Assembly: GCA_014360755.1 (NCBI GenBank)
Contig: JACIWX010000007.1
Span: 1 to 64,000, forward strand
Direction of reading: 5' to 3'
Length of the DNA stretch: 64,000 nt
DNA from: Chloroflexota bacterium
Lineage (GTDB): Bacteria > Chloroflexota > Anaerolineae > UBA2200
In this document: piece after piece, positions 18,014 to 64,000 of the stretch
How the letters are laid out: each line of letters begins with the position of its first letter
Position numbering within the stretch: the stretch's first letter is position 1
Notes under the pieces: generated by a model
Told to the model about the DNA's origin: nothing
Database searches by the model: none
The model's input: the letters and a program-made list of their open reading frames with translations, nothing else
Translations under genes and position numbers: made by a program

Positions 18014-18070
18014 TTGACTTGCGTGGTGCATTTCATTACAATATCCTGACCTATCCCGTATATGCGGGAT
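18014..18070 (+). promoter_or_regulatory. Promoter and palindrome upstream of the XPB operon
   Basis: TTGACT at 18014-18019 and TACAAT at 18037-18042 have a 17-base spacer. Just downstream, around the expected transcription start, an imperfect palindrome ATCCCG-TATATG-CGGGAT spans 18053-18070. It could be an operator or a 5' RNA stem. The same TTGACT-17-TACAAT arrangement precedes pstS. Confidence 0.7.
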
Positions 18071-45535: not shown

Positions 45536-45961
45536 TTACCCCGCAGGCGTTTCTTCGTGCGGAAGACCTTCCGGCGCAGGCACCTGGGGGGCGGATGCAG
45601 TCTCTTCGCTCGCTTCGCTGGCAGTACCTCCTGTTTCATCTGCCACAGGAGATGGCGTGGTGGCCTCTGCGGGTTCCTGGGCTTCTTCTGGCGCCGCTGC
45701 AGGCGCTTTCTCTGGAGCGCTTTCTGCGACCGCTTCCTCTGCGGCTGCCACGGCTTCTTTCTTCACTTCTTCCAGCGCGGTCTGGGTGCTCTCCATCTCC
45801 TTGCGCAGTTCTGTCGTCAGATCCTCAGAAGCGCGCCGGAACTCGGTGATGGCTCTGCCAAGGTCTCTGGCGATCTCCGGCAAACGCCGTGGGCCAAAGA
45901 TGAGCAAAGCCAAGATGAGGATGAAGAGCAACTCCATGGGACCGATATTGAACAGGTTCAC
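45536..45961 (-). CDS. tatB: Twin-arginine translocase subunit TatB-like
   Basis: A 141-aa protein with one N-terminal membrane helix ([18 protein letters not shown]), the amphipathic hinge [20 protein letters not shown] and a long acidic/Ala/Pro tail, which is the TatB plan. The start is GTG at 45961, overlapping the tatA stop as GTGA. No tatC is in the window. It likely serves the Tat-signal proteins encoded upstream at 51-57 kb. Confidence 0.9.
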
Positions 45962-46644: not shown

Positions 46645-48642
46645 TTATGTACGGGGGACAGCGCCTGGGGCATGCACGCGGATCGCTGCCTCGTCCTTCA
46701 CCGGGCAGACAAACTCGCACGTGCCGCAGCCGATGCAAACGTCCGGATTGACAATGGGATACTTGCCCTTCCTGCCTGGCACATTACCCTGTACCAATGC
46801 CCCTTTTACCGGGCATTTTTGCACGCAGAGCAAACAGCGGATGCATTTGTCGAAATCCACTACGGCGGTGCCAATCTTGGCTTTGCGTTTCTCTTCCAGC
46901 GATAGTTTGGGAATGGCTTGTGTCGGACAGACCTGCCCACAGGCATTGCAGTCATAGTCACAGTTGCCGATGCGTGGGATGAGCAAGGGCGACCAGATGG
47001 ATTCCAAGCCAGCCTCAAACAGTGCCAGATGCAGGGCATTGTTCGGGCAGACCTTGACGCACTGGCCGCAGCGGATGCAGCGGCTGAGGAACTCGTCCTC
47101 TTTCGCCCCAGGTGGACGGAGTTGGTAGGGGTACTTGCTCTTGAGCATATCTGATTTGAGCAGGGCTGCACCGCCCACGCCGACCACCAACGAAGCCAAC
47201 ATCTGCCGCCGCGAGGGGTCGTAACGGTAGCCAAAACCGGGCTTGGGCTGCGGGCCGAACTTGGTGGCATCTGCCGGACAGACACCCAAGCAATCCAGGC
47301 ACATGAGGCACTCGCCCGGGTCGCTGCTCAAATCTGCATAGGAGATGGTATCCATGGGACAGCTCGGGACGCAGCGTCCCCATTCCAGGCAGATCTTCTT
47401 ATCCACATAGCGTTTGATCCAAGAGAACTTGGATAGGAAAGCCACCCATGCCCCCAAGGGGCAGAGATAGCGGCACCAGAAGCGCTTGGCGAACAGGTTC
47501 AGCACGAGCACAATGACCAGGGGTATCACCAACACCGGATGCACTAAGGGCCGCAAGGGGACCGCTGCCGCCCGTTCCTTGGTCGTCAGCCCCTGGGGTA
47601 TGACCACTGGCGCCTGTTTCTGCAGGATCGCCGGGTAGATCGTCCCCGCCAGCGGACGGACAAAGATCGTGATGGGGTCTAGCCACATCAGAGCCAGGCT
47701 TCCCAGCAATGCCGCTGCGATGAAGGCAAAGAGCAAGAAATACTTGACCTGGCGCAATTTGTCCGGGATGCGTGGGTTCCTATTGGGGCCATACAGGTTC
47801 AGCACGGTTCCCAGAGGACAGATCCAACCACACCAGACCCTGCCGAGCAAGAGCGTGACGACAATGGTGACCAAGCCCGGGATCATGTTGGCGATCAGTT
47901 TCTTCGAACCAAGCATGGAAACGAACGCCATAAGTGGATCAAAGCGGCTGAAAAGGTTGATCGGCAGTGCTTCCACTCCCTGACGCGTGGTGTTCCAGAC
48001 CAGGTACAGGAACAGCGCCAGCAATCCCAATTGCACCACTTGCCGCAGCCGTACCCACAATCCCCCCACGCCCTTGACTTGGATGCCAGGCACATGAGCA
48101 ATGGCGCCAGTCGGGCAATAGGGAATGCACTTGCCACAGGTGGCGCACTCTGGAGATGGCTGGTCAAACGGTGTGCTCACTTTGCGCGCCTGACTGCGGT
48201 CCACCAAACCAATGACGTTTTTGTGGGCGACCTCATCACAAGCGCGCACACAGAGCCCACAGAGGATGCAATCTTCTTCCGGATGGTCCGTAGGGAAGCT
48301 AGGCTTCTCGATGCCGTATTGTTTCGCCAAAAGTTGCAAGGGCCGCACATTGGGACACCGCGACAGCAAGAGGTCAATCATCATCTTGCGCGTATTTGTC
48401 GCCGCGGGAGAATCAGTCTTGACCTCCATACCCTCTTCCACTGGGTAATCACAGGAAGTACTCACCACGGAGCGCCCTTTGCGGTTGACCTCTACCACGC
48501 AGACGCGGCAAGCGCCATACGGCTTGAGGTCTGGATGGCTGCACAGGGTAGGGATTTCGATGCCTACCTTTCGGGCTGCCTCCAGGATAGTTGTTCCTTC
48601 CTCAACCTGTACTTTTTGCCCATTAATCGTGAGTTCTACCAT
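46645..48642 (-). CDS. NuoG-head / NapH / NapG triple-fusion iron-sulfur membrane protein
   Basis: A 665-aa protein of three modules. Residues 1-215: a NuoG/HndD-type head with a [2Fe-2S] loop (CSHPDLKPYGACRVC) and two [4Fe-4S] motifs (CILCGLCVRAC, CATCGKCIPYC). Residues about 220-470: four membrane helices with the NapH-type CGWICP (near 272) and CRYLCP (near 390), then CVPSC and CLMCLDCLGVC. Residues about 475-665: an internal SRRQMLASLVVGVGGAALL segment resembling a Tat signal, then four ferredoxin motifs as in NapG/MauM (CIRCGQC, CNACGQVC, CIRCLLC, CIGCGTC). No catalytic NuoG domain. The ATG at 48642 follows AGGAGA. It lies 11 bases after the nuoF-like stop; predicted to wire NADH electrons across the membrane. 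Confidence 0.88.
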   Translation of the reverse strand: MVELTINGQKVQVEEGTTILEAARKVGIEIPTLCSHPDLKPYGACRVCVVEVNRKGRSVVSTSCDYPVEEGMEVKTDSPAATNTRKMMIDLLLSRCPNVRPLQLLAKQYGIEKPSFPTDHPEEDCILCGLCVRACDEVAHKNVIGLVDRSQARKVSTPFDQPSPECATCGKCIPYCPTGAIAHVPGIQVKGVGGLWVRLRQVVQLGLLALFLYLVWNTTRQGVEALPINLFSRFDPLMAFVSMLGSKKLIANMIPGLVTIVVTLLLGRVWCGWICPLGTVLNLYGPNRNPRIPDKLRQVKYFLLFAFIAAALLGSLALMWLDPITIFVRPLAGTIYPAILQKQAPVVIPQGLTTKERAAAVPLRPLVHPVLVIPLVIVLVLNLFAKRFWCRYLCPLGAWVAFLSKFSWIKRYVDKKICLEWGRCVPSCPMDTISYADLSSDPGECLMCLDCLGVCPADATKFGPQPKPGFGYRYDPSRRQMLASLVVGVGGAALLKSDMLKSKYPYQLRPPGAKEDEFLSRCIRCGQCVKVCPNNALHLALFEAGLESIWSPLLIPRIGNCDYDCNACGQVCPTQAIPKLSLEEKRKAKIGTAVVDFDKCIRCLLCVQKCPVKGALVQGNVPGRKGKYPIVNPDVCIGCGTCEFVCPVKDEAAIRVHAPGAVPRT

Positions 48643-48653
48643 GTTGCTGTCTC

Positions 48654-50507
48654 CTATTCTACCTTGATGGCGTTGAATCTGCAGACTTCGCGACAGATTC
48701 CGCAGCGGATGCACTTGTTAGGATCAATGTGGTGGACCTGCTTCTTCTCGCCGGTGATGGCTCCCTGCGGGCAATTGCGCAGGCAGACGCCACAGCCCGT
48801 GCAATTCTCAGCGATGACGGAGAAGGTAATCAGGTCCTTGCAAACCGCTGCCGGACAACGCTTATCGCGGATATGCGCTTCATACTCATCCCGGAAGTAG
48901 CGGATGGTGCTCAGCACGGGATTGGGTGCCATGCGGCCCAGGGCACAGAGCGACCCAGCGATCATCGCTTCACCTATTTCCTGCAGCCGCTCGACATCCC
49001 CTTCCTGGCCCTTCCCATGCACGATGCGTTCCAGGATTTCGTACATGCGTCGGCTTCCCTCGCGGCATGCCGTGCACTTGCCGCAGGATTCCTCCATGGT
49101 AAAGTGCAGGAAGTAGCGTGCCACGTCCACCATGCAGGTATCCTCATCCATGACGATGAGGCCTCCTGAACCCATGATGGAGCCGGCTTCTGTCAGGGCT
49201 TCGTAATCCACAGGCAGGTCGAGCAAACGCTCCGGGATGCAACCGCCGGACGGCCCGCCAGTCTGCACTGCCTTGCACTTCTTACCGCTGGAGATGCCGC
49301 CGCCAATGTCGAACACGAGGTGGCGCAACGTAGCACCCATCGGCACTTCCACTAAGCCGGTATTGTTGACCTTGCCCACCAGGGAAAAGACCATCGTCCC
49401 TTTGCTTGTCGCCGTACCCATCTGAGCGAACCAATCCGCACCGTTGTTGATGATATAGGGCACAGACGCCCAGGTTTTGACGTTGTTCAGGACTGTGGGG
49501 CGATCCCACAGCCCTTTTTCAGTGGCGTGGATGCGTTTCGCCCGTGGTTCGCCGGCATAGCCCTCGATGGAGCGCATCAGGGCACTGGATTCGCCACAGA
49601 CGAAAGCGCCTGCTCCGCGATGCACCTTGAAGGTGAAGTCAAAACCGGACCCGAGGATATTTTTCCCCAGCAAGCCATATGCTTCCGCCTGCTCGATGGC
49701 GCGGGTGATGTTTTCTACCGCCAGGGGGTATTCATGGCGGATGTAGATAAAGCCCTCGTGCGCACCTACGGCGTAGGCGCCGATGATGATGCCTTCGAGG
49801 ATGCTGTGCGGGTTTCCTTCGACCAGGCTGCGGTCTTGGTAGGCACCTGGGTCGCCCTCGTCAGCATTGCAGATAACATACTTGACATCCCCGTCAGCCC
49901 GACGGCATTCTTCCCACTTGCGTCCTGTAGGGAATCCTGCTCCGCCCCGGCCACGCAAGCCAGAGCGCTTGATCTCCTCGATGACCTGTTCCGGGGTCAT
50001 TTCGAAGAGGGCTTTGCACAGTGCCTGATACCCGCCAATGGCGATATAATCTTCGATTTTGGTGGGGATAATCAAGCCATTGTACTTCATCAAGACGCGT
50101 TTTTGCTCGCGATAGAAGGGGACATCTGGTTCATGGACAACCGGTTGTCCGGTCACTGGGTCTACATACAGTTTTCGCTCCACGGGATTCCCCTTCACGA
50201 GCGTCTCGGAGACGATGTCCGGGACGTCCTCTGCCGTCACCCCCTGGTAAAAGATCTGCTGGGGGTAGACAACGACCAAAGGACCTCGTTCGCAGAAGCC
50301 GTGGCAACCGGTCATCTTGAGGTCCACCTTATCCTGCAAGCCCTGCTTCTTCAGCTCACGTCCCAAGGCGGCAGTGACCTCTTTTGCGCCCAAAGCCCGG
50401 CAACCTGTTCCCCCGCACACGGTAATGCAAGGCTTGGACGGCTCCCAGCTCGCAAGCACAGACTGGCGCCACTCCTCAAACTCGGCGCGCGATGTTAGCC
50501 TAGGCAT
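48654..50507 (-). CDS. NuoF-like NADH-binding flavoprotein (HndC type)
   Basis: A 617-aa subunit. It has an N-terminal thioredoxin-like [2Fe-2S] domain (CGGTGCRALG, TGCHGFC), the FMN/NADH domain (GRGGAGFPTGRKWEECR near 182, GAGAFVCGESSALMRSIEG near 300), an SLBB region, the cluster motif ESCGKCTACREGS near 472, and a C-terminal 2x[4Fe-4S] ferredoxin (CTGCGVC, CIRCGIC). This layout is that of NADP/NAD-reducing hydrogenase and HndC-type subunits. It oxidises NADH and feeds iron-sulfur clusters. Its ATG overlaps the nuoE-like stop by 8 bases. No hydrogenase catalytic subunit is present nearby. Confidence 0.95.
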   Translation of the reverse strand: MPRLTSRAEFEEWRQSVLASWEPSKPCITVCGGTGCRALGAKEVTAALGRELKKQGLQDKVDLKMTGCHGFCERGPLVVVYPQQIFYQGVTAEDVPDIVSETLVKGNPVERKLYVDPVTGQPVVHEPDVPFYREQKRVLMKYNGLIIPTKIEDYIAIGGYQALCKALFEMTPEQVIEEIKRSGLRGRGGAGFPTGRKWEECRRADGDVKYVICNADEGDPGAYQDRSLVEGNPHSILEGIIIGAYAVGAHEGFIYIRHEYPLAVENITRAIEQAEAYGLLGKNILGSGFDFTFKVHRGAGAFVCGESSALMRSIEGYAGEPRAKRIHATEKGLWDRPTVLNNVKTWASVPYIINNGADWFAQMGTATSKGTMVFSLVGKVNNTGLVEVPMGATLRHLVFDIGGGISSGKKCKAVQTGGPSGGCIPERLLDLPVDYEALTEAGSIMGSGGLIVMDEDTCMVDVARYFLHFTMEESCGKCTACREGSRRMYEILERIVHGKGQEGDVERLQEIGEAMIAGSLCALGRMAPNPVLSTIRYFRDEYEAHIRDKRCPAAVCKDLITFSVIAENCTGCGVCLRNCPQGAITGEKKQVHHIDPNKCIRCGICREVCRFNAIKVE

Positions 50508-50979
50508 TGGCAGCAACCTCCTCTTCCATGTATTTCTGGAGCACGCGCTCCACTTTGCTAGCAGCCATCTTGCCGTAGTACTGGCCATCCACCACCATCA
50601 CGGGACCCAGGGCGCAGCAGCCCAGGCAGTTGACAGTATCAAAACTGAAGCGCCTGTCCTTGGTCGTCTCACCGGGCTTGACGCCGAGCAAACGTCCCAC
50701 CTGATCGGCGATGGCGACGCCGCCGCGCACGTGACATGCGGTTCCCAAACAGACGGTGATAGAATGCTTGCCGCGAGGCTCCAGGCTGAAAGCCTTGTAG
50801 AACTTGGCCACCTGGTAAACCTGTATCAGGGGTAAGTTCATTTTCTGTGCAATGCGCTCCAAGGCTTCTCGTGGCAAGTAGTTGTACTCGCTCTGGATAT
50901 CCTGCAGCATCGCAGTGAGAGCACGCTGTTCTGCTCCATGCTTCTCGATGACGGCATCCACCTTGTTCACATCGAACAT
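50500..50979 (-). CDS. NuoE-like [2Fe-2S] subunit
   Basis: A 159-aa thioredoxin-like ferredoxin with the four-Cys pattern CLGTACHV near 78 and CLGCCALGP near 118, and the helical N-terminus (LTAMLQDIQSEYNYLPREALERIAQ) of NuoE/HndA proteins. It pairs with the NuoF-like subunit. AGGAGGAAAAAAGAGC precedes ATG 50979. Confidence 0.95.
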   Translation of the reverse strand: MFDVNKVDAVIEKHGAEQRALTAMLQDIQSEYNYLPREALERIAQKMNLPLIQVYQVAKFYKAFSLEPRGKHSITVCLGTACHVRGGVAIADQVGRLLGVKPGETTKDRRFSFDTVNCLGCCALGPVMVVDGQYYGKMAASKVERVLQKYMEEEVAANA

Positions 50980-51055
50980 GCTCTTTTTTCCTCCTTGTCA
51001 ATGTAAATAGTCGCGTTCAAGATATGCGGCTTGTTGAAAAGCAATTGGGATAGTA

Positions 51056-52504
51056 TTATAGCCAGGGGCGGTTCTGTTGTGCCCAGGGGCAGGCGGCGAT
51101 ACAGTTCGAGCAATCCGTGCCGCCGTTTGAGCGCCAGAACAGGTAGCAGTTGCCCACATTCACCGTCCAGCGCAAGATGCCCGGACGGTTGGAGATGGAG
51201 GTCTGTTCCAGCGAGCGCTCGCCGAAGGGGATGGCTTTGGCGGGGCAGGCATGGGCACAGAACAAACACGTTTCACAGAACCGTTGCATGCCAAAATCAA
51301 TCGGTTTGTCTGTCGCCAGCGGCAAGTTCGTGAGCACCTTGCACAAACGCTGCCGTGGTCCAAATTCCGGCGTGAGCAACAAGCCCAGCCGCCCGATCTC
51401 CCCCAAGCCAGCATCAATGGCGAGGGGGATATTTTGCGTCGTGTCATTTCCCGAGGGCACGGCTTCATAACCCAAAGCGCGGATGTACTTGGCGAGCTTG
51501 GAACTCACTTCCGCCATCTTGGAATAAATCAGCGCCGTAGCTGCGCTTGCCGGAAAACCGGGCGATTTGCGGATGCTGGCAAAGTCCATCTCCAGCCCCA
51601 TCACAATGGCATATTTGTAGGGGATTTCCAGTTCCCCATACGCGCCAGTCTCGCGGTCATAGTAATGCGAGTATACCCAGAGCGGGTTAATGGCGCAAAT
51701 CCCCACCAGGTCGGCACCATAGAAACGTGCGACGGCTTTGATGTGCTCCGCCATTGCGGACGTATCCTCAACCGGCAGCCTCTCTGGGCTGACTGCATCA
51801 TCCCAATCGTACAGCCCGCCATAGCCGCGCACATGGCCAGAGTAGCCACGGTAATTGGGGACAAGGCTGCCGACAGCATCATCCACGTAGATGGCGCCAG
51901 CGACCAGTGCCCTGCCCTTGATCATCTCTTCTGGCGTCTCGCGCCTTTGCCGCAGTGTAACTTTGCTAATCTGCTCCTGGTAGTCTTTGTCCCACATCAC
52001 ACGCGAGAACACGGTGTTGCGCTGGTCAAACCGTGCGACCTTATCCGTCAGGTAGGGGGCATAGGTAGGTTTGTCCACGCGCCTAGCCCCGGGGATCTTG
52101 CGTGCATGCTGCGCGAGGATATGCTTGACCAGTTCCTCCTGCGTGGAGAAGCGCTCTGCGCAGGAGGGGCAAGCCCACATGGCTGGCTCCCACATCACAG
52201 GCGTGGGAGTTGCCTTGAGACGGGTTGCGGTAGGCGTGGGCGTCATGGGGGGTAAGGGTGTTGGTTCCCATTCGGGAGTAGGCACCTCCGCGTCTTCCCC
52301 GGCAATGTAACTGGGGATCAATGTGGCTGTCTCTGTAGGACCCGCGATAGCAGTTGTCTTAGGCGTTGGCGAAGGCGCACAAGCAGCCAGCGCCTCAGCC
52401 GCTCCCAGCGATAACCCCAAAAGCGTGGCGTAACGGATAAAGCCACGCCGGCTGATACGGCCCTGTTGTAATTCTTTTAACAACCTGTTGATTTCACCGA
52501 ACAT
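51056..52504 (-). CDS. Reductive-dehalogenase-like Tat lipoprotein
   Basis: A 482-aa protein of the reductive dehalogenase (RdhA) superfamily. It opens with a Tat signal (SRRGFIRYATLLGLSLG) that also carries a lipobox (LAAC), then a Pro/Thr linker. Residues about 113-136 form an unexpected C2H2-type site (CPSCAERF...HILAQH). The catalytic domain has GADLVGICAINPLWVYSH near 265 and NIPLAIDAGLGEIGRLGLLLTPEFG near 370, and ends with CETCLFCAHACP and CSNCIAACP [4Fe-4S] motifs. RdhA enzymes use a corrinoid to remove halogens. No RdhB anchor gene is present. The start at 52504 follows GAGGTGAG. Electrons presumably come from the adjacent NADH-linked proteins. Confidence 0.88.
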   Translation of the reverse strand: MFGEINRLLKELQQGRISRRGFIRYATLLGLSLGAAEALAACAPSPTPKTTAIAGPTETATLIPSYIAGEDAEVPTPEWEPTPLPPMTPTPTATRLKATPTPVMWEPAMWACPSCAERFSTQEELVKHILAQHARKIPGARRVDKPTYAPYLTDKVARFDQRNTVFSRVMWDKDYQEQISKVTLRQRRETPEEMIKGRALVAGAIYVDDAVGSLVPNYRGYSGHVRGYGGLYDWDDAVSPERLPVEDTSAMAEHIKAVARFYGADLVGICAINPLWVYSHYYDRETGAYGELEIPYKYAIVMGLEMDFASIRKSPGFPASAATALIYSKMAEVSSKLAKYIRALGYEAVPSGNDTTQNIPLAIDAGLGEIGRLGLLLTPEFGPRQRLCKVLTNLPLATDKPIDFGMQRFCETCLFCAHACPAKAIPFGERSLEQTSISNRPGILRWTVNVGNCYLFWRSNGGTDCSNCIAACPWAQQNRPWL

Positions 52505-52532
52505 GATTTCTCTCACCTCTTGCAGAGACTTG

Positions 52533-52547
52533 AGACCTGTCAGGTCT
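52533..52547. repeat. AGACCTGTCAGGTCT palindrome
   Basis: A single copy of the dispersed palindrome lying between the membrane-protein gene and the dehalogenase-like gene, 29 bases upstream of the latter's start. Confidence 0.85.
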
Positions 52548-52565
52548 CCTCCATGCAGTTGCGTC

Positions 52566-53069
52566 TTATTTCGCACGCGGCTGTACGATATTATGCAGCA
52601 GACTAGCCAGCAAAGCGACTATCCCCCCTGCTCTGGTCAGGTACAGCCCCGTGCGCAACCTGGTACTCACTTCCACTTTGGCAAACCCGCCGTAGTCGCC
52701 AATACCGTGGCCCTGGATGGGCACATTAAACCCCTCCGCGACCTCAGCAATCCTGCCCAAGAAACGGGACACGCCCAGCAGGATAATAATCCCTCCGAGA
52801 GCAATCAAGATTCGTCCGGGCCAGCCACGCAACACACTGCCCAGTGCGATCAGCACCACGGCACCAATCAGTACCCTGGTCAGGAGGAGCATCTGCGGGC
52901 TGCGCTTGTAGCCCAAAAGCTCGCGGAGGGGACCGACAATCTGATAAGGATAGATGTCGCTTTCGTTGCCAAACAAGGTCAGGCTCCACCACGGGCGCAT
53001 GAGGCCAAGGACAATCAAAGCCACCGCTACCAGAGCCAAAAAGTTAGGGAAGGAGAAGAGGCGTTTCAT
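52566..53069 (-). CDS. Four-helix membrane protein, unknown
   Basis: A 167-aa protein with four hydrophobic segments (FLALVAVALIVLGLM, LIGAVVLIALGSVL, ILIALGGIIILLGVSRFLG, AGGIVALLASLLHNIV) and a polar loop rich in Gly/Tyr near 35-55. It is encoded between a ThiF-like gene and the dehalogenase-like gene. It is larger than RdhB anchors and lacks their motifs, but could dock the exported enzyme. Function unknown. Confidence 0.75.
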   Translation of the reverse strand: MKRLFSFPNFLALVAVALIVLGLMRPWWSLTLFGNESDIYPYQIVGPLRELLGYKRSPQMLLLTRVLIGAVVLIALGSVLRGWPGRILIALGGIIILLGVSRFLGRIAEVAEGFNVPIQGHGIGDYGGFAKVEVSTRLRTGLYLTRAGGIVALLASLLHNIVQPRAK

Positions 53070-53088
53070 TTCTCACTCCTCGCACATG

Positions 53089-54006
53089 CTAATCAATTAT
53101 CCGTGTAAACCAGCGCACTACCGTCTTGGAACGCGACAGCCGGATCATCCGTTCCCACAACCAGGGATACCGCGACAGGCGCGAAGCCAGTTTGCGCCCT
53201 AGTCCGAATTTGCGGATGCGCGCGTTCGACGGCGTAATGTACCAGTAGTAAGGGGCGATAATGGGCTTCCACTTGCCACTCACCAGTTTGATCACTTCCA
53301 ATGCCGCCAATGTCCCTGTAACCCAGACAATGGGACAAATTTGGGCGTGGGGCAGTTTGCCTTCCACCCATTGCTCAAACCAGTCTTCCCGCCACTGGCC
53401 CTCGGTAACATAGTAGAGCAACAGCCGCCGGGCATCCGGTCGTACAGTATACTCCTGCAGTTCATGATAGCCAAATCCGTAAGGCATCACCAGGCACTCG
53501 GCGACGGTGGGGCTGTCCTTAGTGAAGACCGAAACCCTCCCCAACGCCCCCACCGGGTAAGCCATCACCGCTGGTTTGGACTTGCGGATGATCTCCAGCG
53601 CCGCCAGGCTCAAGGGCCACTCGTCCATCACAGGGAGGATCACATCGCCCAGTTTGGCGATCTCTTCGATTTCCTCGTAGACCAGGGCACGCTCATAGGC
53701 AGTCACCTCAGCCTCTGGGTTGATGCGCTGGATTTCTTCTCTGAGGCACACAGCTTTGTTCTTGCCAATGGTGTCACAATAACAGGCAATTTGCCGGTTC
53801 ATGTTCGAGGGTTCGTAGGACTCTGGGTCCATAAGCACCAAGTGGCCGACGCCCGTGCGTGCCAAAGCGACTGCGATAACTCCGCCTATGCCACCGCAGC
53901 CAATAACGACAACTCTGGCATCCTTAATGCGGCGCTGCTCTTCTTCGGTGAAAATGCCATAATTACGGTAGAAGTATGTTTCATAATCCCACTCACTTGC
54001 TGCCAT
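53089..54006 (-). CDS. ThiF/MoeB-family adenylyltransferase (E1-like)
   Basis: A 305-aa E1-like enzyme. ATP-binding loop VVVIGCGGIGGVIAVALARTGV near 35, the Asp of LVLMDPESYEPSNMNRQ near 60 and the Arg that follows are canonical. MoeB and ThiF adenylate a sulfur-carrier C-terminus for molybdopterin or thiamine synthesis. The paired CxxC zinc motifs common in MoeB are not seen. Lying next to an aldehyde oxidoreductase, it may help make or sulfurate the pterin cofactor (inference). Start 54006 with AGGAGGATAGG upstream. Confidence 0.88.
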   Translation of the reverse strand: MAASEWDYETYFYRNYGIFTEEEQRRIKDARVVVIGCGGIGGVIAVALARTGVGHLVLMDPESYEPSNMNRQIACYCDTIGKNKAVCLREEIQRINPEAEVTAYERALVYEEIEEIAKLGDVILPVMDEWPLSLAALEIIRKSKPAVMAYPVGALGRVSVFTKDSPTVAECLVMPYGFGYHELQEYTVRPDARRLLLYYVTEGQWREDWFEQWVEGKLPHAQICPIVWVTGTLAALEVIKLVSGKWKPIIAPYYWYITPSNARIRKFGLGRKLASRLSRYPWLWERMIRLSRSKTVVRWFTRIID

Positions 54007-54034
54007 TTTCTAGCCTATCCTCCTACACTTCTTT

Positions 54035-54068
54035 AGACCTGACAGGTCTTTGGAGACCTGTCAGGTCT
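54035..54068. repeat. Paired AGACCTG palindromes
   Basis: AGACCTGACAGGTCT, TTGG, AGACCTGTCAGGTCT, between the AOR terminator and the ThiF-like gene. Confidence 0.9.
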
Positions 54069-54101
54069 AGCAAGTCAGATCTAGCACACCCAAATACGCA
54101 A

Positions 54102-54139
54102 AAGGCCCCAACCCGATGGAGGACACAGGTTGGGGCCTT
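54102..54139 (-). terminator. Intrinsic terminator after the aldehyde oxidoreductase gene
   Basis: On the minus strand a 12-bp GC-rich stem (AAGGCCCCAACC/GGTTGGGGCCTT) with a 14-base loop is followed by TTTTGCGTATTT. It lies 27 bases past the AOR stop, so the ferredoxin-AOR pair is probably a unit of its own. Confidence 0.8.
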
Positions 54140-54165
54140 GCGTTCTTCCTCGGGATTAGCCAAAT

Positions 54166-56199
54166 CTAGCGCAATTTGGCAGCGTAGGGTTCAGCGATGT
54201 CGTCAATCCCAAGGTCTTTGAGCGTGTCGGCGAGGGGCACGCCCTTGTCCTCGCTCCAGCCTCTGGTCTTCCAGTACGCGGGCAAGGCTTCGTCGTACAG
54301 CACCTCCGGCTTGCCATCGTACGCCACTCTGCCCTTGCCTGAACCGGTGGGCAATGGATCGTAGAACCAACGATGCGGGAAGAGCGTATCCCATTCCTTC
54401 TTCGGGTCTTTGATCCCCTGCGTGGTGAGGTTAAAGATCCTGCCCAGGGCATAGGCGCGGGCACCGACTTTGACCACGTCATCCTCGGTAAAGTCGGTCC
54501 AACCGGTGGCTGCCTGCACCATAGCGGCGATCTTGCCCGCCCAGTTGCCGGCGGCGAAGGAGCAGATGACCAGGGAGTTATGCGTTGCCTGGGTGTTCTG
54601 CCCGGCGATGGCTGCGGGATAGTCCTTCTTCAGGAATCCAGCGCCGCCGCCACCGGTGTGCTCGCATGGCCGCACCACCGTAACGTATTCCAGGGCGTCC
54701 TTGTCAAAGCCCCGCACGTCGTGCGCTGGCTGGCCATAGCGGTGTCCAGTGCTGGGATAGTTCATGATCTCCGGCTTGCCCTTCTTCTCGGCAAAGTACT
54801 TGGCGGTCTCCCAGGTGCCCTTGGCAAGCACGGCGCCGATGCCTTCCTTGCGCACGATCTTCTTGACGATGGCATCCACGGCATGGACATCGCCCCACTT
54901 GAGGTTGATGCCATCCAGGTCCGCCGGGGTGATGAGGTTGCGCTGGATGAGCTCCATAAGCAGCGCCAGCAGAGCACCGCCTTCGATGTAGTCAAGGCCA
55001 TTGCTGTCATGGAGGAAAGTGGTGTACTGCGTCTTTGCCAGCGCTTCCATCAAGTCCCAATGGTCGCCGGTGAAGGGATCGCTGGGCGTCATGCCTTCCA
55101 GTTCGCAATACCCCAGGTTGCCACCGACTTGGCCCATGGCTTCCCAGTCGGGCATGTCGGTAACGACCCCATCCATAAGCGGGTCCTTGCTGGTGATTTC
55201 GGTGAGATACATGCAGTGCAAGGTGCAGCCGGGGCAAGCCATCTGCTTGACAAAGCTGGCGGCGTCCATCCACGGTCCTTCCAGCGCTTTGACAACCGTA
55301 GGATCTGCCCAAGCACCCCACTGCCAGTTGCGGATGGGGAAGGCGTCCTCGGAGTTGGCGCAGCGCGCGCCGATGCCGGCGGTGCCGAAGGAGCGCCAGA
55401 AGTAGTTCGTGGCTTCGGAAGCCTGGATCTCACGGGCCAGTTGCAGGAACTTGCCTTTGTCAGCAAGCACGTGGCCCTTGGTGCCGCGGATGACGATGCC
55501 CTTCAGGTTCTTGGAACCGACGATGGCTCCAGCGCCATAGCGGCCGTGAGCGCGAGCGCCTTCGGTGATGACGTTGGCGTACCAGACCCCATTTTCGCCG
55601 CCGGGACCGATGACCCATGCCGCCGCCAATCGCTTGGCGCCGATGCCCTTGCCCTTGGGCGGGCGCAGCGCAGCCCATTCCGGGGTCATGTCCGCTTCGG
55701 TGAGGATGCTCTCGCGGTATTCGTTGGGCGCCAGCACCGACTTGAGCAGCTCCAACTCGGCTTCTTCCGTGCTCATGCCCCAGATATGGCTGGCATCGCG
55801 GATCTCGATGTTGTCATCCACCACCGCGATGTAGACGGGCTTGTCGGACTTGCCCACGACCTGGATGCCATCCCAGCCGGCGAACTTGAGTTCTGACGCA
55901 GCGCGGCCACCGGAGGTGGTGACGGTCATAAAGTTGTACGCGCTCTTGGTGACGATCACCGACCGAGCGTTAGGCGCCACTCCAGTCACCGGCCCGATCA
56001 TGAACTGCACCATGTTCTGTGGGCTGAACGGCTCTACTTTGGGGTCAATGAGGCCCTCTGCGACCATGAAATAGAGCCCTAGCGCCTCACCGCCGAGGAA
56101 TTTCTTGTACACCTCCTCTGGCGGCTCGACAACCGTTACCTTCTTTGTGGTCAGATCAACACGCGCGATCTTCCCTGTAGCACCTTTTAACTCGGCCAT
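54166..56199 (-). CDS. Aldehyde:ferredoxin oxidoreductase family protein
   Basis: A 677-aa AOR-family enzyme, which uses a bis-pterin tungsten or molybdenum site and a [4Fe-4S] cluster to oxidise aldehydes or reduce acids. The N-terminal domain has GKIARVDLTTKKVTV and FLGGEALGLYF; the cluster motif CPGCTLHC is near 320, with the last Cys in VICSFAAGNW near 546. RGTKGHV and GARCANSEDAFPIRNW are also family-typical. It has no signal peptide. Its ATG overlaps the stop of the Tat-exported ferredoxin (TAATG), so it may be exported as a hitchhiker or work on the inside. E. coli YdhV is a related neighbour-of-ferredoxin case. Confidence 0.93.
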   Translation of the reverse strand: MAELKGATGKIARVDLTTKKVTVVEPPEEVYKKFLGGEALGLYFMVAEGLIDPKVEPFSPQNMVQFMIGPVTGVAPNARSVIVTKSAYNFMTVTTSGGRAASELKFAGWDGIQVVGKSDKPVYIAVVDDNIEIRDASHIWGMSTEEAELELLKSVLAPNEYRESILTEADMTPEWAALRPPKGKGIGAKRLAAAWVIGPGGENGVWYANVITEGARAHGRYGAGAIVGSKNLKGIVIRGTKGHVLADKGKFLQLAREIQASEATNYFWRSFGTAGIGARCANSEDAFPIRNWQWGAWADPTVVKALEGPWMDAASFVKQMACPGCTLHCMYLTEITSKDPLMDGVVTDMPDWEAMGQVGGNLGYCELEGMTPSDPFTGDHWDLMEALAKTQYTTFLHDSNGLDYIEGGALLALLMELIQRNLITPADLDGINLKWGDVHAVDAIVKKIVRKEGIGAVLAKGTWETAKYFAEKKGKPEIMNYPSTGHRYGQPAHDVRGFDKDALEYVTVVRPCEHTGGGGAGFLKKDYPAAIAGQNTQATHNSLVICSFAAGNWAGKIAAMVQAATGWTDFTEDDVVKVGARAYALGRIFNLTTQGIKDPKKEWDTLFPHRWFYDPLPTGSGKGRVAYDGKPEVLYDEALPAYWKTRGWSEDKGVPLADTLKDLGIDDIAEPYAAKLR

Positions 56200-57074
56200 T
56201 ATACGTCCCTCCTCTCCGCATACAACTTGGCATAGGTCAGCTCAAAGAACTCTTCTGGTTGGTGCGCCCAGTAGCGGCCGTTGGTCTGCAGCGGCACGAA
56301 CAGCAGCGCGCCTGGCTCGGGGCAGACCTCGACGCAGGTGGGCAAGCCACCGCAGCGGGTGCAGATTTGCGCCTTCTTCTCGATGGGGTCGAAGGAGATG
56401 CCACTGCCGAACTGGTCTTCGCAGACCTCCAGACAGCGCCCACAGAGGTCAAGCCCAAGGCACAAATCGCGGTCGATGTTCAGGTAGCCCATACCGGTGT
56501 AACCCGGCTTGCCTTGCCCCTCGGGCACGACGGAAATCGCTCCCTGCGGGCAGACCTGCTCACACGGCGCCTTGGTGGAACCCTCCGCCCACTCGATCAA
56601 GCGGCAGTCCTGGCAGACGTTGATGATGTCCACATACTGCGAGCGCATGGGGCGGATACGGGAGAACTCCAGGTTGACGCCTTTGGCGGCTTCCTCCGGG
56701 AAGTACTCCGTCGCCCACTTGTCGGCGCAGGCTACCGCGCAGATGAGGCAGCCGGTGCAGATAGCGGGGTTAAAGCGCAGCATGTACCCAGCCAGGGCTT
56801 GCTTCTCGGCTGCGGGCGGGGGAGCTGTCGGGGCAACGGTGGGCGGCGGTGCGGCCGTCGGCGGAACTGCTGTGGGCGGTGCAGCCGTCGGCGGCGCAGC
56901 GGTAGGCGCTACCGCGGTTGGCGTGGGCTTGGGCGCGCAGGCGGCCAAAGCCTCAGCCGCTCCCAGCGATACACCCAGCAACGTCACATAGCGCAAGAAT
57001 TCGCGCCGACTGATCACGCCCTGTCGCAATTGCTCCTGCAGCTCCGAAATCCTTTCTTGCAAGTTTTGTGACAT
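56199..57074 (-). CDS. Tat-exported four-cluster ferredoxin subunit
   Basis: A 291-aa iron-sulfur protein. The N-terminus has a Tat signal (SRREFLRYVTLLGVSLG) with a lipobox (LAAC), followed by about 35 residues of Ala/Pro/Thr repeats. The rest has four [4Fe-4S] motif groups: CTGCLICAVAC near 113, CQDC with CEQVCPQG, CLGLDLCGRCLEVC, and CTRCGGLPTCVEVCP near 250. It is the likely electron partner of the AOR gene it overlaps. The signal peptide is almost the same as that of the dehalogenase-like protein. Confidence 0.92.
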   Translation of the reverse strand: MSQNLQERISELQEQLRQGVISRREFLRYVTLLGVSLGAAEALAACAPKPTPTAVAPTAAPPTAAPPTAVPPTAAPPPTVAPTAPPPAAEKQALAGYMLRFNPAICTGCLICAVACADKWATEYFPEEAAKGVNLEFSRIRPMRSQYVDIINVCQDCRLIEWAEGSTKAPCEQVCPQGAISVVPEGQGKPGYTGMGYLNIDRDLCLGLDLCGRCLEVCEDQFGSGISFDPIEKKAQICTRCGGLPTCVEVCPEPGALLFVPLQTNGRYWAHQPEEFFELTYAKLYAERRDV

Positions 57075-57453
57075 TTCTTTCCTCTCCTCCTAAAAATTGA
57101 TCAAGAAATGTAACTTCTACGGACGTCCAAGGGTTTGTACTGCCTGCACACCACCTCCTCTCTGAGTGAATGAACCTGCTCTCATGACACGATCACAACA
57201 CAATGCAAAAGGGAGCAAACACTTGACGCTTTGCGATCAAGCGATTTGCCCCCTTTGCAAACACGGCAGGCACAGGAATTGCTCCCTGTACCCTAACGCC
57301 CGTTTCCTCCCAGGGGGAGGAGACAGGTCGGAGGCTGTGACACCTACGACACAGCGTTTGAACTCGAAAGACCCTACATTCACATAGCCAGGAGCACTGC
57401 GTGCATCTCTTCAGGCGCGAACTCAATTGCGGCTATGTATGCTTGTGAAACAC
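57075..57453 (-). ncRNA. Structured leader, candidate Moco/Tuco-type riboswitch
   Basis: The transcript from the promoter at 57460-57488 would have about 380 untranslated bases. Between 57355 and 57262 (minus strand) it contains stem GCTGTG/CACAGC, then CCTCCGACC, a TCCTCCC/GGGAGGA hairpin, GGGCG, and AGGGTACAGG...CCTGTGCCTGC. These blocks recall the molybdenum/tungsten cofactor riboswitch, and the gene served uses such a cofactor. A long hairpin at 57204-57259 (arms of about 20 bases) follows and could be the switching element. The match is from memory, without a covariance search. A 77-aa open frame here is not credible. Confidence 0.55.
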
Positions 57454-57459
57454 AGCACC

Positions 57460-57488
57460 ATTATAGCACATTTCGTTTGAATTGTCAA
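57460..57488 (-). promoter_or_regulatory. Consensus promoter of the ferredoxin-AOR unit
   Basis: On the minus strand, TTGACA (57488-57483) and TATAAT (57465-57460) are both perfect, with a 17-base spacer. Confidence 0.85.
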
Positions 57489-63075: not shown

Positions 63076-64000
63076 CTAGAACAAATGGATCGCTGCAATA
63101 ACCGGGGCAAAAAGGGAAGAGACGAGCGACATCACGGTGATCAGCGTATTCATGGAAGGGCCTGCCGTGTCCTTGAACGGGTCACCGACGGTGTCGCCAA
63201 CGACGCTGGCTTTGTGCGCATCAGAGCCGGGGCCACCGAATTCGCCAGATTCGATGAACTTTTTGGCATTATCCCACAATCCGCCAGCATTCGCCATGAG
63301 CAGAGCGAAAATGACACCGGTGAAGATGCTCCCGCCCAGGAAGCCTCCCAACGCCTCTGGGCCAAGGACAAAGCCCACTAGCACGGGCAGGACTACTGCC
63401 AGAAAAGCGGGCAACACGAGGGAGCTCAAGGCTCCCTGCGCCGCCAGGCTGACGCAGGAGGTATAGTCCGGCTTCTCCGTTCCTGCTAAGATGCCCGGGC
63501 GTTGGCGGAACTGGCGGCGGATCTCCTCAATCATCTTGAAAGCATTGTTGGTCACTGCGAGCATGGTCAAAGCGCTGAAGAGCGGTGGCGTCATCGCCCC
63601 CAACAGGGTCCCCGCGACAACCACCGGGTCGCGCAGGCTGAGGGACAATTGCACCCCTCTCATGCCCACCACTTGTGCATAGGCAGCAAAAAGAGCCAAG
63701 ACGGTAAGTGCGGCTGCGCTGATAGAAAAGCCCTTGGTGATGGCTTTGGCGGTGTTGCCGGCGGCATCGAGCACATCGGCGGTATCAATTACCTGGTGCG
63801 GCATTCCGGACATCTGGGCAATGCCCCGCGCATTGTCCACGATAGGACCGTAGGCATCTGCCGAGACGATCATCCCCGTGATAGTCAACATGCCCACGGC
63901 ACTCACACCCACGCCATAGATGCCATCCATGCCTGCACGTGCAGTCAGGAAGTAGGCAACCAGAGTAGCCACGGCGATGCCGACGATAGAAGGGACAATG
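63076..64000 (-). CDS. hppA: Membrane-bound proton-pumping pyrophosphatase (partial)
   Basis: The C-terminal 307 residues of a V-type H+-translocating pyrophosphatase; the N-terminus lies beyond the window edge. It pumps H+ using PPi hydrolysis. Visible signatures: DAYGPIVDNARGIAQMSG, DVLDAAGNTAKAITKGFSI, PDYTSCVSLAAQ, and the end DNAKKFIESG, GDTVGDPFKDTAGPSMNTLI. Lys in GNTAKAITKG indicates the K+-independent class. About seven membrane helices are seen here. The frame is open to the window border. Confidence 0.96.
   Translation of the reverse strand, partial: IVPSIVGIAVATLVAYFLTARAGMDGIYGVGVSAVGMLTITGMIVSADAYGPIVDNARGIAQMSGMPHQVIDTADVLDAAGNTAKAITKGFSISAAALTVLALFAAYAQVVGMRGVQLSLSLRDPVVVAGTLLGAMTPPLFSALTMLAVTNNAFKMIEEIRRQFRQRPGILAGTEKPDYTSCVSLAAQGALSSLVLPAFLAVVLPVLVGFVLGPEALGGFLGGSIFTGVIFALLMANAGGLWDNAKKFIESGEFGGPGSDAHKASVVGDTVGDPFKDTAGPSMNTLITVMSLVSSLFAPVIAAIHLF

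Follow-up and report, generated by a model that had tools for sequence, protein, structure and literature searches.

An Operon of an Uncultured Chloroflexota Bacterium Predicted to Link an Exported Tungsten Oxidoreductase to an Electron-Bifurcating Core

The Locus

The stretch of DNA analyzed here, referred to in what follows as the window, comprises 64,000 nucleotides of a contig from an uncultured Chloroflexota bacterium whose genome (94% complete) is labelled G000; other G and L labels denote genomes and loci of relatives, G001 (96% complete) being a second species of the same genus. Eight genes lie close together between 57074 and 46645 on the minus strand, and we predict that they encode a membrane-spanning redox system of the electron-bifurcating Bfu family in which a cytosolic core is connected to an exported tungsten oxidoreductase (WOR). 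An earlier note on this DNA had listed eight genes on one strand in the order worS, worL, ThiF-like, small membrane protein, RdhA-like, bfuC, bfuB and fusion (5′ to 3′, in our present naming), and this is borne out, with family support for seven of them; the small membrane protein matches no family. The genes are separated by −1, 159, 19, −11, 76, −8 and 11 nucleotides, and their order is kept in the full operon of G001. The features, all on the minus strand, are the following.

57460..57488, minus: sigma-70-type promoter match, TTGACA-17-TATAAT with TG ahead of the second hexamer, matching the consensus at 12 of 12 positions
57234..57345, minus: Moco/Tuco riboswitch aptamer, RF01055, 51.3 bits against a gathering threshold of 36, with an E-value of 2.4e-9 over the whole window
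56199..57074, minus: worS, Tat lipoprotein ferredoxin with 16 Cys after the signal, enough for four [4Fe-4S] clusters
54166..56199, minus: worL, AOR-family tungstopterin subunit (AFOR_N and AFOR_C matches, alignment with 1aor and alignment of relatives)
53089..54006, minus: ThiF/MoeB-like adenylyltransferase (PF00899)
52566..53069, minus: small membrane protein, predicted claudin/TARP-like four-helix fold
51056..52576, minus: RdhA-like Tat lipoprotein (TIGR02486 above cut-off)
50500..50979, minus: BfuC, HydC/HoxE/NuoE-like, [2Fe-2S] (family matches)
48654..50507, minus: BfuB, HydB-type (domains and cluster ligands; residues numbered from an open reading frame (ORF) start at 50588)
46645..48642, minus: fusion of BfuA, NapH-like and NapG-like parts (profile, motif and structure comparisons)
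45536..45961, minus: tatA (TIGR01411, 57.8 bits against a cut-off of 53.9)

The Predicted Bifurcating Core

The two genes preceding the fusion gene had been taken in the earlier note for NuoE and NuoF of complex I. The product of the second, BfuB, has a thioredoxin-like [2Fe-2S] domain at its N-terminus, two ferredoxin motifs at its C-terminus and, between these, an FMN/NAD domain and the B1 cluster, and its top four relatives in the PDB are all bifurcating (7t2r, 796 bits; 8a6t, 786; 7q4v, 776; and the WOR-Bfu enzyme 9mqx, 773), as compared to 391 bits for Thermus Nqo1. The stretch EAHIRDKRCPAAVC corresponds to the H525/C531/C536 ligands of NiFe-HydB, and the B2 ligands His572, Cys485, Cys578 and Cys583 are kept. 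The B2 histidine, the three cysteines and the C-terminal clusters are present in 7 of 8 fusion-linked BfuBs and lacking in E. coli NuoF, used as a control. Schut et al. base their definition of the Bfu family on this core and, in the parts of their paper drawn on here, report the B2 histidine to be missing in only 8 of 1558 BfuB sequences and absent in homologues that do not bifurcate (PMC9304861). BfuC scores best against the HoxE model, yet below the cut-off of that model. With the BfuB domains, the B2 ligands, BfuC and a BfuA homologue all found in the operon, the supposed NuoEF is, as judged by sequence, the BfuBC core of the electron-bifurcating family, for which bifurcating turnover is predicted. 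A complex I module is rejected because the extra Bfu clusters are present, the genes are not in a Nuo operon and no antiporter-type subunit was found in the genome. NADH as the only input, as had been proposed, is too narrow, since BfuBC couples NAD(H) and ferredoxin.

Other BfuB-like proteins were encountered along the way. The earlier statement that no hydrogenase is encoded here is true of this locus; elsewhere in the genome, on contig C17, NiFe-hydrogenase-like genes (VhuA/VhuG-like, below cut-offs) occur beside BfuC-, BfuA- and BfuB-like proteins (L163, 5410−12470), the BfuB-like protein being an unusual fusion of 1016 amino acids with a GltD-type NAD(P)H oxidoreductase as its second half. 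Enlarged BfuB-like proteins of 1005 and 983 amino acids, with long N-terminal additions that partly resemble the BfuB thioredoxin-like domain, adjoin BfuA-NapH-NapG fusions in L056 (3996−7013) and L058 (4893−7844), respectively, and upstream of their genes proteins with Ig/fn3-type matches are encoded.

The Fusion Protein

Residues 1−215 of the fusion match BfuA and residues 216−667 match NapH and then NapG. The chain carries one [2Fe-2S], eight ferredoxin-type and two CX3CP motifs, laid out as a [2Fe-2S] and two [4Fe-4S] sites, a membrane part with both CX3CP motifs, a tail ferredoxin, a helix with an RR motif and four [4Fe-4S] sites; the eight-plus-one motif count of the earlier note stands, except that one Cys is gone from the first motif in the NapH tail. 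Sequence comparison of the BfuA part gives 144 bits for HydA of 8a6t, in two stretches, and 136 bits for WorA of 9mqx, in one nearly gapless stretch, and a structure search, informative for residues 1−130 only and not for the NapH-NapG fold, places WorA closest (Z 15.3, 124 residues, root-mean-square deviation 2.6). A His-Cys3 motif, present in the E. coli NuoG control, is absent from 8 of 8 fusions. The BfuA part has the Type 2 pattern of the Bfu family, namely a [2Fe-2S] and two [4Fe-4S] clusters without A3/A5, and its clusters may be assigned to A2 or A4 by analogy.

The remainder has the feature pattern of NapH and NapG, with helices and two CX3CP motifs, each flanked by hydrophobic stretches, the tail ferredoxin (one Cys short), an RR motif (DPSRRQML) preceding the last helix, and four clusters. 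The RR pattern is matched in 6 of 8 fusions (KR in L056). NapH homology and the RR motif suggest that the CX3CP motifs and tail ferredoxin lie inside and the last four clusters outside; the charges flanking the helices, as counted, are only partly asymmetric. An AlphaFold model of the fusion has a mean pLDDT of 82.5, with low confidence within residues 127−192.

The Exported Enzymes and Their Companions

Among the tungsten oxidoreductase classes of a recent survey (PMC13328260, 2026), as described in the parts of it considered here, Class IV (WorLSABC) is bifurcating and Class V, with a Tat-directed WorS, is exported and has no known function. An RR signal motif and 16 Cys are found in 9 of 9 WorS proteins, and the WorL ORFs begin without an evident signal, by eye. 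WorL keeps four cluster Cys together with a Glu and a His where the P. furiosus AOR active site has E313 and H448; in G667 and G603, whose WorL is more distant, the first cluster Cys is unmatched. The exported ferredoxin and the AOR-family protein look like an exported tungsten oxidoreductase, WorSL, that is Class V-like in the Tat signal of WorS. Membership of WorL in clade 41 is doubtful because it shares no more than 30% identity with YdhV across 302 residues (105 bits); it scores 163 bits against PRK09849, whose cut-off is 868. All five Class IV gene types (WorLSABC; clades 62, 63 and 87) are present in the operon, the export signal setting it apart from that class.

The RdhA-like identity assigned in the earlier note is confirmed (TIGR02486, 202 bits against a cut-off of 160). 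Tyr, Asn and Arg of the PceA active site, located by residue numbers that we presume for S. multivorans PceA, are kept along with both [4Fe-4S] motifs in 10 of 10 RdhAs of the module, so that with its Tat signal the protein has the features expected of a respiratory RdhA. The window RdhA ends 9 residues after the last motif and the ten as a group 9−13 residues after it; 8q4h continues 62 residues beyond the aligned end. According to the parts of PMC10624902 used here, in D. hafniense PceA the C-terminal region takes part, with PceB, in menaquinone binding. Because the module RdhAs end so soon they are without this region, and a quinol-linked RdhA of the PceAB type, having a quinone-binding C-terminus as in PceA2B2, is not favoured. 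A phylum-wide search found RdhA in 21 of 400 genomes at E ≤ 1e-30, with only the window's own copy above 47% identity; the sample missed carriers of the module, since G001, G004, G005 and G034 gave no row despite having RdhAs. An N-terminal C-x2-C-x(10-14)-H-x(3-5)-H motif is seen in 9 of 10 exported module RdhAs, twice in G034 and L076. The genome also has a second RdhA-family protein (L162, contig C12, 10030−11256) of 408 amino acids, above the TIGR02486 cut-off and with no evident Tat signal.

The ThiF/MoeB-like protein, whose gene recurs in G001, G004, G034 and G460, probably acts in cofactor maturation. The small membrane protein has no Pfam or NCBIfam match at E 0.001; its model (pLDDT 86) has four helices with a beta sheet on one side and retrieves claudins in Foldseek (E 2e-4, 16−18% identity). 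Its invariant residues are P26, W27, W28, G46, G53, M60, L73, L80, R106, G120 and G141, with no Cys or His among them, and a role as an anchor is probable. Claudin/TARP-like bacterial four-helix proteins of this kind stand near exported WOR or RdhA genes in all 10 copies seen.

The tatA gene, overlooked in the earlier note, begins 683 nucleotides after the fusion gene on the same strand, and TatA-like genes are also found downstream in G001 and G004. Between fusion and tatA the window has a short ORF (46287−46673) whose product has a single hydrophobic stretch and a repetitive tail resembling a coiled coil; the corresponding space in G001 is only ∼310 nucleotides.

Relatives and Gene Neighborhoods

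Eight full fusions were found, in the window, G001, G005, G516, G667, G603, L056 and L058. BfuB adjoins 8 of these and BfuC 7; an exported WOR (Tat-WorS with WorL) accompanies 5, and RdhA is within the retrieved stretch for 4. In G005 the order is WorSL, small membrane protein, BfuC, BfuB and fusion, with RdhA in a separate cluster. G667 and G603, of another family, have worS-worL-bfuC-bfuB-fusion with a WorL only 27% identical and with no RdhA in the stretch, from which it follows that the exported WOR is a more constant partner than RdhA and that RdhA is not the constant partner the earlier note had made it.

A different arrangement is found in L074 and L076, where a NapH-like protein, beside the same WOR-RdhA genes, contains inserted Fer4_20 and Pyr_redox_2 domains, a GltD-type NAD(P)H flavoprotein, between the second CX3CP motif and the tail ferredoxin, which is the predicted cytosolic side. 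The two are not independent: the L076 genes are very near those of L074 by eye on a contig labelled Peptococcaceae, so that transfer or misbinning is possible, and most of the NapG part of L076 is missing in its frame (the L074 positions coincide with contig C333 of G034). Two different pyridine-nucleotide modules on one relay provide the strongest argument that cytosolic electrons enter the relay.

Among 396 genomes of the class, 58 have a match at E ≤ 1e-100 and only 6 of these span the whole fusion, a count that misses fusions cut by contig ends; NapH-NapG alone was for this reason rejected as a marker of the complex. The three stand-alone copies looked at (L041, 9479−10444; L057, 7785−8870; L040, 10545−11567) adjoin DUF362 proteins, by Pfam in L041 and L057 and by eye in L040, and these neighbors have Tat-like starts. 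Removing copies and short matches from 97 matching ORFs left 59, and removing two truncated ORFs (L026, L069) left 57 rows for a quick tree. This tree requires 5 changes of the fusion label, at least 4 of them forced by starred branches, and gives no support to a single origin of the fusion; G004 groups with the fused G005, and G460 branches just below the fused G516.

Quinone Genes

A decaprenyl-phosphate phosphoribosyltransferase is the sole UbiA-family protein that turned up in G000 and in G001. MqnA/D were found in 0 of 10 genomes, as was MenD (TIGR00173) above cut-off. MenD is weak as the sole test for quinones, given that class genomes with complex I-type subunits (G016, G032, G034) also have none above cut-off, and UbiA-family proteins were classified for this reason: the one of G000 and 20 of 30 listed, including all of G001, G004, G005 and G516. 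The MenA-like proteins of G004 and G005 stay below cut-offs; a MenA exceeding the TIGR00751 cut-off occurs in G516, G460 and G034, and MqnP-like proteins exceeding that of TIGR01475 in G667 and G603. The quinone-free reading of the earlier note is thus supported for the window's genus, as far as gene content can tell, and does not extend to all carriers. No antiporter-type subunits were found in G000, G004 or G005, and those of G001 are below cut-off, so that neither G000 nor G001 has a Nuo/Mrp antiporter subunit above cut-off. Part of a membrane-bound H+-pyrophosphatase lies at 63076−63972 of the window; this enzyme might supply membrane potential in a genome that yielded no complex I-type antiporter subunit.

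Promoter and Riboswitch

Both the promoter match and the riboswitch had been overlooked. As the promoter scan is no richer than shuffled sequences (6 sites against a mean of 5.1), the promoter has for its support the perfect match and its place. Apart from the riboswitch, nothing in the 64 kb matches an Rfam family at its gathering threshold. The P3 stem columns of the riboswitch are empty, as in Tuco-type members, and Moco/Tuco riboswitches of the P3-less form have been associated with tungsten-cofactor genes in the parts of PMC2408646 that we draw on. The same family precedes worS in G001, G004, G005 and G460 as well, that is, 5 of 9 exported worS genes, and P3 is empty in 4 of these 5; the G460 alignment differs and is ambiguous. 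It was not found before worS of G034, G667 or G603 or before the second worS of G005. A second, stronger, P3-less riboswitch of this kind (66 bits) shares its contig stretch with the WOR-RdhA cluster of G004 (L037, 18000−18133), and a tandem pair precedes ABC-transporter-like and moaA-like genes (by eye) in G472, with NapH-NapG nearby (L198, 7286−7703).

Elsewhere in the window, an XPB-type helicase followed by two large proteins is encoded at 18069−24454, with Helicase_C_3 matches in all three. Comparison with PHROGs yielded nothing useful.

A Predicted Membrane-Spanning Bifurcating System

Taken together, these data lead us to propose, with a probability of roughly 0.6, that the operon encodes one membrane-spanning Bfu redox system. 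On the cytosolic side, the FMN site of bifurcation would reside in BfuB and BfuC, which would trade electrons with NAD(H) and ferredoxin jointly. Mid-potential electrons would travel between this core and the outside via iron-sulfur centers only, along BfuA and the NapH-like and NapG-like parts joined to it, and outside the cell the four clusters of the NapG part would meet the four-cluster WorS. WorS in turn would serve WorL, co-exported on the WorS Tat signal, and in the window operon the RdhA-like lipoprotein. The earlier interpretation is partly supported in that it too had combined a cytosolic pyridine-nucleotide module, a transmembrane iron-sulfur relay and exported enzymes; the outward direction that it gave to electron flow is one of two that would be possible.

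What the sequences show is gene content, motifs, conservation and the riboswitch; the single complex, its topology and its electron path are predicted from these. A number of observations weigh against this proposal. The membrane parts are named NapH-like and NapG-like because they fall below curated cut-offs (101.6 against 213.05 bits for napH_, TIGR02163; 103 against 178.85 bits for mauM_napG, TIGR00397), and the first motif of the tail ferredoxin, C420-x2-W-x2-C426-x3-C430, is short of one Cys. In the window's clade that Cys is replaced by Trp in the 4 fused proteins and retained in the 2 unfused ones (G004, G460), a hint at most with six related sequences; it is also retained in the fusions that do not belong to this clade (G667, G603, L056, L058). 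The RR pattern is unmatched in G603 and L058, although L058 has an RR by eye. The fourth B2 Cys of BfuB, at the C476 position of NiFe-HydB, is Val, and Thr in G005, G516, G667 and G603. BfuB adjoins every fusion, which the earlier note had made a condition of its reading, one copy being degenerate: the BfuB of L058 has lost ligands and no BfuC was found there. The exported partners likewise expected are less regular, with no WOR in the retrieved stretch of 3 of 8 fusions (G516, 7.5 kb; L056, 10.5 kb; L058, 19.8 kb) and no recognized exported redox partner in L056 and L058. In view of these three and of the degenerate L058, the fusion may serve other ends or be decaying. NapH-NapG without BfuA stands beside WOR-ThiF-small membrane protein-RdhA genes in G004 and G460, so that bifurcating input is not obligatory, and the riboswitch is missing from 4 of 9 exported worS genes.

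As to direction, inward flow, in which WorL oxidizes a substrate outside and NAD+ and ferredoxin are reduced inside, is weakly favoured, at somewhat below even odds, because WOR accompanies the bifurcating core more constantly than does RdhA. RdhA would then be an added outside sink, and the flow would supply NADH and reduced ferredoxin and store energy as a half-loop; it must also overcome the membrane potential. More tentatively, the system might represent a third membrane-bound bifurcating kind, in which exported tungsten oxidation delivers electrons across the membrane by iron-sulfur centers only to a core that splits them between NAD+ and ferredoxin. If true, this would be a quinone-free energy-conserving half-loop that could share its electrons with a corrinoid reductase outside the cell.

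The main rival is an outward wire, in which NADH and reduced ferredoxin are confurcated to approximately −400 mV in order to drive the exported RdhA, for organohalide respiration or detoxification without quinol. We regard this as a real possibility, though one that we would not expect to prevail. The conserved Tyr/Asn/Arg and clusters of the module RdhAs, their missing quinone-binding C-terminus (compare PMC10624902, in the parts cited above) and the lack of quinone genes found in G000 and G001 speak for it, and confurcation would provide the low-potential supply to RdhA which, from quinol, is named as unresolved in the portion of PMC5928378 consulted. However, no RdhA is present in the G667 and G603 stretches, that of G005 lies in a cluster apart, RdhA is found equally often beside NapH-NapG without Bfu (G004, G460, G034, L076), and to spend ferredoxin on a downhill transfer would be wasteful.

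It is improbable that NapH exchanges electrons with quinone as in nitrate respiration, BfuABC being a second input only. NapH homologues are regarded as quinol-oxidizing (PMC5928378, PMC8238504, in the parts used), and the MenA of G516, G460 and G034 and the MqnP-like proteins of G667 and G603 would suit such a role; G000 and G001, however, are without MqnA/D, MenD above cut-off or a quinone-type UbiA protein, with quinone uptake a possible way around this. Least likely of all is that two enzymes share an operon, a soluble cytosolic WOR-Bfu and an unrelated exported RdhA/NapHG pair, for while bifurcating WorLSABC enzymes are known (PMC13328260, in the parts cited) and WorL has no evident signal of its own, BfuA and NapH-NapG form a single polypeptide in 8 loci, the Tat motif of WorS, kept in 9 of 9, is the mark of exported Class V WORs, and tatA lies downstream.

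Were the proposed membrane-spanning system to be as described, it would join three open problems: the purpose served by Class V WORs outside the cell, the route by which exported RdhA obtains low-potential electrons without quinol, and outside chemistry in quinone-free anaerobes. The relay looks modular, NapH-NapG-like proteins standing beside the same exported enzymes with a bifurcating input, a GltD-type NAD(P)H input or neither, and because the inputs differ in this way natural variants can be compared. The Tuco-type riboswitch adds a regulatory prediction that can be tested.

Comparison with Known Systems

In the literature searched, no description was found of BfuABC fused or linked to NapH, or of an exported WOR with BfuABC; the main text of PMC13328260 has no occurrence of NapH, dehalogenase or Chloroflexota, and that of PMC9304861 lacks the words NapH and dehalogenase. 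What follows is drawn from parts of the papers cited. The organohalide respiration complex of Dehalococcoides (PMC5736913, PMC10772276, PMC6005880) shares a quinone-free electron supply to RdhA in Chloroflexota, but relies on the Hup hydrogenase together with a formate-dehydrogenase-like protein, and the window operon encodes neither. NapGH, NosR and RdhC/PceC share the four-helix membrane module with two CX3CP motifs and the delivery of electrons to an exported enzyme; as described in the parts used, their link is to quinol or an outside FMN domain, and none has BfuA. Mbh-Bfu and Nuo-Bfu, themselves predicted (PMC9304861), also place BfuABC on a membrane module, but would pump protons and act on H2 or quinone, whereas the window has a NapH-NapG relay and exported enzymes.

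Closest are two classes of WOR. The Class IV WOR-Bfu of Acetomicrobium mobile (9mqx; PMC9304861, PMC13328260) shares WorL, WorS, BfuABC, a Type 2 BfuA and a close BfuB (773 bits); there WorSL feed directly into the WorABC plug, with no membrane part mentioned in the sections of PMC13328260 used, whereas the window has a Tat-exported WorS and a BfuA fused to NapH-NapG. Class V WORs (E. coli YdhVYWXUT, Cetobacterium WOR41; PMC13328260) share the Tat signal on WorS and a WorL taken to be co-exported, and Tat genes are nearby in Cetobacterium as in the window; BfuABC are unmentioned for this class in those sections, while the window has them, together with a WorL only 30% identical to YdhV. The operon thus appears to join the marks of both, export as in Class V and coupling to BfuABC as in Class IV.

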